Shown here piece by piece: positions 38,042 to 39,866 of a DNA stretch of 42,686 nucleotides. The translations under genes and the position numbers were made by a program. This DNA is from Clostridiales bacterium (GTDB lineage Bacteria > Bacillota > Clostridia > Christensenellales > Aristaeellaceae), in the NCBI GenBank assembly GCA_012513645.1, contig JAAZBU010000037.1:1-42686 (forward strand), given 5' to 3'. Every line of letters starts with the position of its first letter. Position 1 is the first letter of the stretch. Below the pieces are notes generated by a model, which worked only from the letters and a program-made list of their open reading frames with translations, was not told the origin of the DNA and searched no databases.

Positions 38042-38073
38042 CCCCCTTCCGGCACCTCCTGGCCGGAAGGGGG
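38042..38073. terminator. Bidirectional terminator between the feo operon and the ABC exporter
   Basis: Perfect 12-bp GC-rich stem (38042-38053 with 38062-38073), 8-nt loop, between two convergent genes. T-runs are modest on both sides (CTTCATGTTT on plus). Confidence 0.7.
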
Positions 38074-39679: not shown

Positions 39680-39708
39680 ATCCTCCGTCGAACCCACGGC
39701 GGAAGGAT
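39680..39708 (-). promoter_or_regulatory. Hairpin sequestering the exporter ribosome site
   Basis: 39680-39690 pairs with 39697-39708 (11 bp with a one-base bulge, 6-nt loop). On the minus-strand RNA the 3' arm contains GGAGG, the exporter Shine-Dalgarno. The 5' arm contains CCGCCG, which can instead pair with the upstream CGGCGGC (39728-39722). Confidence 0.6.
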
Positions 39709-39721
39709 GTATGTATTTCCT

Positions 39722-39742
39722 GCCGCCGGTTTAGACGGCGGC
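39722..39742 (-). promoter_or_regulatory. Upstream attenuator hairpin overlapping the leader peptide
   Basis: Perfect 7-bp stem GCCGCCG (39742-39736 on minus) with CGGCGGC (39728-39722), loop of 7 nt that contains the leader stop codon. Segment 1 is the last Ala-Ala-Val codons of the leader; a ribosome stalled there would free segment 2 to pair with the arm of the next hairpin. Confidence 0.6.
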
Positions 39743-39757
39743 CCGCAGCCTGACCAT
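39731..39757 (-). CDS. Leader peptide MVRLRAAV upstream of the ABC exporter
   Basis: Eight codons plus TAA, with GAGGG at 39770-39766 placed eight bases before the ATG at 39757 and a predicted promoter starting transcription about 27 nt earlier. The stop lies in the loop of the first hairpin. Placement and base pairing match translational attenuation leaders such as that of ermC. Not verified experimentally; predicted from sequence only. Confidence 0.55.
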   Translation of the reverse strand: MVRLRAAV

Positions 39758-39790
39758 GCGATGTGCCCTCGTTTCGTGTAAGATGTTCAG

Positions 39791-39819
39791 AGTGTAGCGG
39801 ATGAGAGGCAGGCGGTCAA
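39791..39819 (-). promoter_or_regulatory. Predicted promoter of the leader peptide/ABC exporter
   Basis: Minus strand TTGACC (39819-39814), 17-bp spacer, TACACT (39796-39791). Transcription would start near 39784. Confidence 0.7.
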
Positions 39820-39837: not shown

Positions 39838-39866
39838 TTGCCAACAGCCGCCTCGAATGGTATATT
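39838..39866 (+). promoter_or_regulatory. Predicted promoter of nadE-pncB
   Basis: TTGCCA (39838-39843), 17-bp spacer, TATATT (39861-39866). The transcript would begin near 39873, only about a dozen bases before the start codon but still including GGAGG (39873-39877). Confidence 0.65.

Follow-up and report, generated by a model that had tools for sequence, protein, structure and literature searches.

In translational attenuation of the ermC type, a drug-dependent stall on a leader open reading frame (ORF) governs the pairing of four alternating RNA segments: a 3:4 (or 1:4) helix conceals the ribosome site of the resistance gene until segments 2 and 3 pair and free it. The ermC leader has 19 codons (MGIFSIFVI...), and its target encodes a methyltransferase. 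Transcription attenuation at a Rho-independent terminator operates in erm(K) and in mef(E), which encodes an MFS pump. The [R/K]-x-[R/K] (+X+) sequence is an arrest site for ketolides and, among other sites, for macrolides; on Arg-Leu-Arg, the reaction between the peptidyl-Arg-Leu-tRNA in the P site and the Arg-tRNA entering the A site fails (PMC8298421). This signature is present in the leaders of mef(E)/mef(A) (MTASMRLR, which controls mef(E)), msr(A) (MTASMRLK) and erm(D)/erm(K) (PMC4335068), and a leader containing RLR controls hflXr, a macrolide/lincosamide resistance gene of Listeria monocytogenes (PMC6310831). In Bacillus subtilis, the ABC multidrug exporter genes bmrC and bmrD are placed under a ribosome-sensing leader, bmrB (PMC4191407). 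The mechanism itself is thus known from erm, mef, hflXr and bmrCD.

Here we analysed a window of 42,686 nucleotides (contig JAAZBU010000037.1 of a Clostridiales bacterium), in which a first-pass annotation had proposed an ermC-like switch in front of an ABC exporter. From the sequence comparisons described below, we consider it highly probable that the locus is a translational attenuator with a +X+ macrolide-arrest leader before an ABC half-exporter. As in the ermC type, there is a leader ORF with a (here predicted) drug-dependent stall, together with four alternating segments that would hide and free the ribosome site under translational control, but the target is an exporter and the leader has only eight codons with +X+ at codons 3–5, so that the whole leader fits under one stalled ribosome. 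The arrest motif is the same as in the mef(E)/mel, msr(A) and erm(D)/erm(K) leaders (MTASMRLR / MTASMRLK / MTHSMRLR...), and mef(E) likewise has an 8-codon leader and encodes an efflux pump (PMC4335068), whereas at this locus no terminator was found and the motif does not lie at the leader end. The rli80-hflXr system differs in its 14-codon, terminator-based leader and in its target, a ribosome-splitting GTPase. The bmrB leader has 53 codons, acts by transcription attenuation on two exporter genes and contains no 8-codon +X+ leader, in contrast to the single exporter gene without a terminator considered here.

Results

Organization of the locus

The promoter, the leader and the four segments were re-read on the minus strand, and all of the coordinates given in the first-pass annotation were correct (Table 1). 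The downstream gene encodes a single-gene ABC half-exporter, not a 23S rRNA methyltransferase, according to Pfam. A sequence scan detected no terminator-like site at segments 3–4 or the 3:4 hairpin and none following them; since no terminator follows, the control is assigned to translation, and transcription attenuation was rejected.

Table 1 Features of the leader–exporter locus in window coordinates
Feature	Position	Strand	Sequence	Basis or remark
Sigma-70-type promoter	39791..39819	-	TTGACC-17-TACACT	Sequence and consensus scan; drives leader and exporter
-35 box	39819-39814	-	TTGACC	Spacer to -10 box, 17 nt
-10 box	39796-39791	-	TACACT	
Leader ribosome site	39766..39770	-	GAGGG	8 nt before leader ATG; sequence
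Leader ORF, 8 codons	39731..39757	-	MVRLRAAV*	Sequence; counterparts in homologues
Leader codons	39757-39731	-	ATG GTC AGG CTG CGG GCC GCC GTC TAA	
Codons 3-5, +X+ macrolide arrest motif	39743..39751	-	Arg-Leu-Arg	P-site Leu4, A-site Arg5; [RK]xR in 18/18 leaders and PMC8298421
Segment 1	39736..39742	-	GCCGCCG	Within codons 6-8; predicted to be covered by a ribosome stalled at codon 4
Segment 2	39728-39722	-	CGGCGGC	
Segment 2, 11-nt form	39718..39728	-	CGGCGGCAGGA	Compensatory changes versus segment 3
Segment 3	39708-39697	-	ATCCTTCCGCCG	
Segment 3, 11-nt form	39697..39707	-	TCCTTCCGCCG	Compensatory changes versus segment 2
Segment 4	39680..39690	-	CGACGGAGGAT	Contains exporter ribosome site CGGAGG (39687-39682)
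ABC half-exporter, 530 aa	38082..39674	-		Pfam ABC_membrane and ABC_tran, one chain

Two neighbouring elements lie outside the switch. A strong divergent promoter on the plus strand (39838-39866, TTGCCA-17-TATATT with an extended -10 TG) serves an NAD synthetase-like gene, whose likely start is at ~39882 and not at the ATG at 39801. A strong terminator-like hairpin of 12 pairs (38042-38073), possibly bidirectional, separates the 3' end of the exporter from a FeoB-like gene cluster.

Conservation of the leader peptide

A protein search alone retrieved 16 homologues of the exporter, 39–50% identical to that of the window. In 15 of these, an 8-codon leader is located 84–120 nt before the exporter start, always with [R/K]-x-R at residues 3–5: MVKRRISF, MIRLRQSF, MVKRRISF, MVKRRVSF, MIRLRSAF, MVRLRNAF, MVRLRKSF, MVRLRKTF, MVKYRFSF, MVKRRVSF, MAKRRNSF, MVKLRASF, MVRRRNSF, MVKRRFSF and MVKRRISF. 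Two further members, obtained with the RNA model described below, have the leaders MVKRRVSF and MNRLRKSF, and these 17 together with the window constitute the set of 18 leaders used throughout. Four different codons encode Arg5, which is kept in 18/18, and seven codons encode the Arg or Lys present at residue 3 in 18/18 (Lys in 10), which argues that selection acts on the leader peptide. When leaders were base-shuffled, an 8-codon ORF of the [RK]xR form preceded by a ribosome site arose in 0.02%. A chance arrangement of the leader and segments was rejected on the basis of this frequency, the conservation and the covariation presented below.

The first-pass annotation had suggested looking for a conserved RAAV-type leader before homologous exporters. 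The short leader is indeed retained, yet its conserved part is [R/K]-x-R at residues 3–5 and not R-A-A-V: Ala6 and Ala7 of the window leader are variable or Ser in the relatives, and Val8 is Phe in 17/17 other leaders. Residue 7 is Ser, Ala or Thr in all 18, with the codon NCC in each; RNA pairing could account for this restriction, but a Pro codon (CCC) was never seen there.

For one leader (L017), the simple test applied did not detect a good ribosome site. The single homologue without the element (L021, genome G554) has another short ORF, MKIRIWLAL*, with its ATG at -244 from the exporter start and a Lys-Ile-Arg (+X+) sequence, preceded by a TTGACA-17-TATACT-like promoter and long inverted repeats. 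This ORF may represent a second kind of +X+ attenuator in front of this exporter family.

Covariation between segments 2 and 3

The fold of the window RNA alone is unremarkable when compared with shuffled sequences (z -1.4 for the 125-nt RNA and -2.4 for the core). Since it is only moderately better than shuffles, a single sequence is not decisive and a comparison is needed. In most members, segment 1 is CCTTCTA (codons 7–9), segment 2 is CGATAGAAGG, segment 3 is CCTTCTATCG and the ribosome site pairs with segment 3, while the letters in the window have changed to CCGCCG, CGGCGG, CCGCCG and CGGAGG for segments 1, 2, 3 and 4, respectively. In a gap-free alignment, 94% of the cells of helix 2:3 are paired and double-sided compensatory changes are found at 6 of the 11 pairs, with G-C, C-G and G-C in the window in place of A-U, U-A and A-U in the relatives. 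None of 500 shuffles was as good, and sliding the partners destroyed the signal. The duplex of window segments 2 and 3 amounts to -16.8 kcal/mol, as compared with about -7 kcal/mol after swapping with the partners of the relatives. An alignment made by the covariance model was left out of the counting because of three reverse-strand matches arising from the palindromic segments. In the window, helix 1:2 uses a register shifted from that of the relatives; we counted this as a weakness and not as covariation. The covariation of 2:3 among homologues bears out the earlier description of four complementary segments, of which the second can also pair with the third. The outcome that the first-pass annotation had named as refuting, a lack of covariation or of leader conservation among homologues, was thus looked for and did not occur.

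The alternative helices are present in 18/18 leaders. The free RNA of the window, like that of about half of the members, has its minimum at 1:4 around 2:3; the remaining members favour 1:2 plus 3:4. Both folds close the exporter ribosome site, and covering segment 1 opens either of them in silico. Accordingly, the proposal that the ribosome site is hidden without a stall holds, but the window prefers 1:4 around 2:3 over the 1:2 plus 3:4 arrangement that had been drawn. In two members (L012 and L004), the loop between segments 2 and 3 is enlarged to 31–33 nt, with an extra small hairpin (CCGGGCTGAACAAGCCGG) in L012; the switch tolerates insertions at this place.

Predicted stall position and opening of the exporter ribosome site

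We calculated the cost of opening the exporter ribosome site with the P site placed on each of codons 1–8 and the mRNA covered to 15 nt past the first P-site base. The median cost for the 18 leaders was 5.4 kcal/mol in the free RNA and 6.0, 4.9, 2.7, 1.9, 2.1, 3.6, 7.1 and 8.4 kcal/mol with the P site on codons 1 to 8, respectively. Opening was therefore cheapest with the P site on codons 3–5, and the minimum in silico fell on codon 4, the P site predicted from the motif: because the conserved feature is [R/K]-x-R at codons 3–5, the ribosome is expected to stall while codon 4 occupies the P site and Arg5 the A site. A stall position that masks segment 1 while sparing segment 2 thus exists in the model. 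For the window alone, with 6–15 nt of the exporter included, the costs were 5.9 kcal/mol in the free RNA, 1.1–1.2 kcal/mol at codons 3–4 and 8.4–8.6 kcal/mol at codon 8. With 30 nt of the exporter coding sequence, the predicted release was much weaker (4.5 versus 6.7 kcal/mol), because in the model a stretch of the coding sequence competes for segment 2; the effect is relevant only if the RNA reaches equilibrium once this stretch has been made.

The stall had originally been placed over the Ala-Ala-Val codons. We rejected this position, since these residues are not conserved and the motif lies at residues 3–5; the ribosome would cover the Ala-Ala-Val codons, not decode them. The erm-type logic as such, in which a stall covers segment 1, 2:3 forms and segment 4 is freed, is upheld by the covariation, the constant geometry and the conservation of the cassette.

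Ribosome arrest by phenicols and oxazolidinones follows Ala, Ser or Thr, and the presence of one of these residues at the penultimate position of all 18 leaders would suit the same switch with such an inducer and a stall at codon 8. However, a ribosome at codon 8 covers segment 2 and lets 3:4 form, which gives the highest opening cost for the exporter site (the 8.4 kcal/mol above). In addition, the pairing of segment 1 in the RNA restricts residue 7 as well, and the invariant Arg5 and R/K3 are left unexplained; we regard this inducer class as extremely unlikely. The motif points to macrolides or ketolides, and phenicols and pleuromutilins fit the geometry poorly. The switch might instead sense slowed translation in general, with any elongation inhibitor acting at codons 3–5 in place of a motif-specific macrolide stall, in the manner of bmrCD, whose leader bmrB is sensitive to ribosome-targeted drugs, lincomycin among them (PMC4191407). 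Such a generic sensor has no need of an invariant [RK]xR at exactly the switch-opening codons of an 8-codon leader, which makes it very unlikely in our assessment.

Specificity of the RNA model

A covariance model was built from the 15 homologue leaders, with the window excluded. The window leader was its only match in its genome (31.9 bits), and across the 396 genomes of the order its matches all lay in exporter-bearing genomes, in exactly 11 of the 12, one of which (G417) has a second, decayed copy of the leader and exporter. Among 398 genomes of the phylum, two unrelated matches of 33 bits (L060 and L061) were rejected as chance; both are located where a RimO-like radical-SAM gene (442 aa, named from its sequence) ends, and they have no leader. 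Because these two unrelated terminator regions reach 33 bits, 31.9 bits alone is not decisive, and the score of the window is meaningful since the leader stands directly before a homologous exporter. No Rfam family exceeded its gathering score, the best match (14.5 bits versus 50) being attributable to chance, and a known RNA family was therefore rejected.

Distribution of the leader and exporter

The exporter is rare: counting the genome of the window itself, it was found in 9 of 308 genomes of the family and 12 of 396 of the order, and it is absent from the four other sampled genomes of the genus. Among the best 25 of 176 NCBIfam matches, no model of a curated resistance or exporter family exceeded its curated cut-off, and the PADLOC matches were partial ATPase matches, which we took as generic. 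Searches of plasmid and phage collections gave no exporter match at E <= 1e-60, by which plasmid or phage carriage was rejected, and pattern matches in viral contigs (16.6 bits) were regarded as chance.

Apart from the exporter, the flanking genes have nothing in common across genera, although neighbours are partly shared within one genus (g20); a conserved gene neighbourhood was thus rejected as a clue to the substrate. Since the neighbourhoods otherwise share nothing across genera, the leader and exporter behave as one solitary cassette. In the tree, the exporters of families f1 and f23 and of f46, which belongs to another order, form one tight, well supported group with 75–87% identity, and the branch of the window exporter is deep. 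In view of this group, the simplest reading of the tree would be that the leader and exporter were transferred horizontally together. RLR leaders occur in the window, the g20 group and L036, and KRR-type leaders only in a derived clade, suggesting that the RLR type is probably ancestral.

Several members are broken. In L018 the exporter has an in-frame TAG, and in L035 an internal in-frame deletion has reduced it to 387 aa; the leader is intact in both. The decayed second copy in G417 (L033, G417:C29:1285-2200) retains an intact leader, MTKRRLSF*, before mere exporter remnants that have lost the start codon, and its segment 2 no longer matches segment 3. These broken exporters fit an accessory gene. 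L035 adjoins a gene with an AAA-ATPase-like sequence.

This distribution also bears on arginine starvation as the signal, in which a shortage of charged tRNA-Arg would make ribosomes pause at the Arg codons and the pump would export a metabolite or peptide. Pausing while Arg codon 5 occupies the A site would produce the same geometry as the drug stall, but just one Arg codon is constant, as position 3 is often Lys and position 4 varies, whereas amino-acid leaders have codon runs; moreover, the gene encodes an ABC exporter, and its patchy occurrence in the family without conserved neighbours is the pattern expected for an accessory resistance gene. We accord this explanation only the faintest chance.

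Discussion

The conserved parts, the covariation and the in silico geometry lead us to infer a leader stall that regulates the exporter. Without a drug, ribosomes would cross the 8-codon leader quickly, and segment 4 would be paired either with segment 3 (alongside 1:2) or with segment 1 (around 2:3). A macrolide or ketolide in the ribosome tunnel would cause arrest at Arg3-Leu4-Arg5, when Leu4 occupies the P site and Arg5 the A site. In this position the ribosome would shield the remainder of the leader and segment 1 within it, roughly as far as the stop codon, and leave segment 2 free to pair with segment 3, whereupon segment 4 would be released and the exporter translated. The exporter would then be expected to remove the drug.

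Macrolides or ketolides are quite likely to be the natural inducers. That the exporter also removes them seems likely, with less assurance, the identity of the substrate being read from the leader motif alone. Because the cassette recurs in distantly related genomes, the solitary pump and its leader very probably represent a real, so far undescribed, antibiotic-inducible pump family. We also lean, on balance, towards a fuller description, in which an unrecognised family of ABC half-exporters inducible by macrolides or ketolides moves horizontally and every member is accompanied by an 8-codon +X+ translational attenuator. Neither the exporter family nor the compact leader nor their combination was found in the family libraries or in the literature searched, most subscription journals lying outside it. 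We know of no other ABC exporter under +X+ translational, as opposed to transcriptional, attenuation, and this one would be the first if the assignment is true.

The attenuator is very compact, with a leader of 27 nt and about 80 nt overall, and the stalled ribosome is predicted to cover exactly the leader; it may thus offer a clean system for studying how the stall position sets a switch. If confirmed, the family would be a patchily distributed, apparently mobile macrolide-responsive pump that is unnamed in the family libraries searched. The leader would reveal what the cell senses and thereby give a likely drug class to a family that would otherwise be just an 'ABC exporter'.
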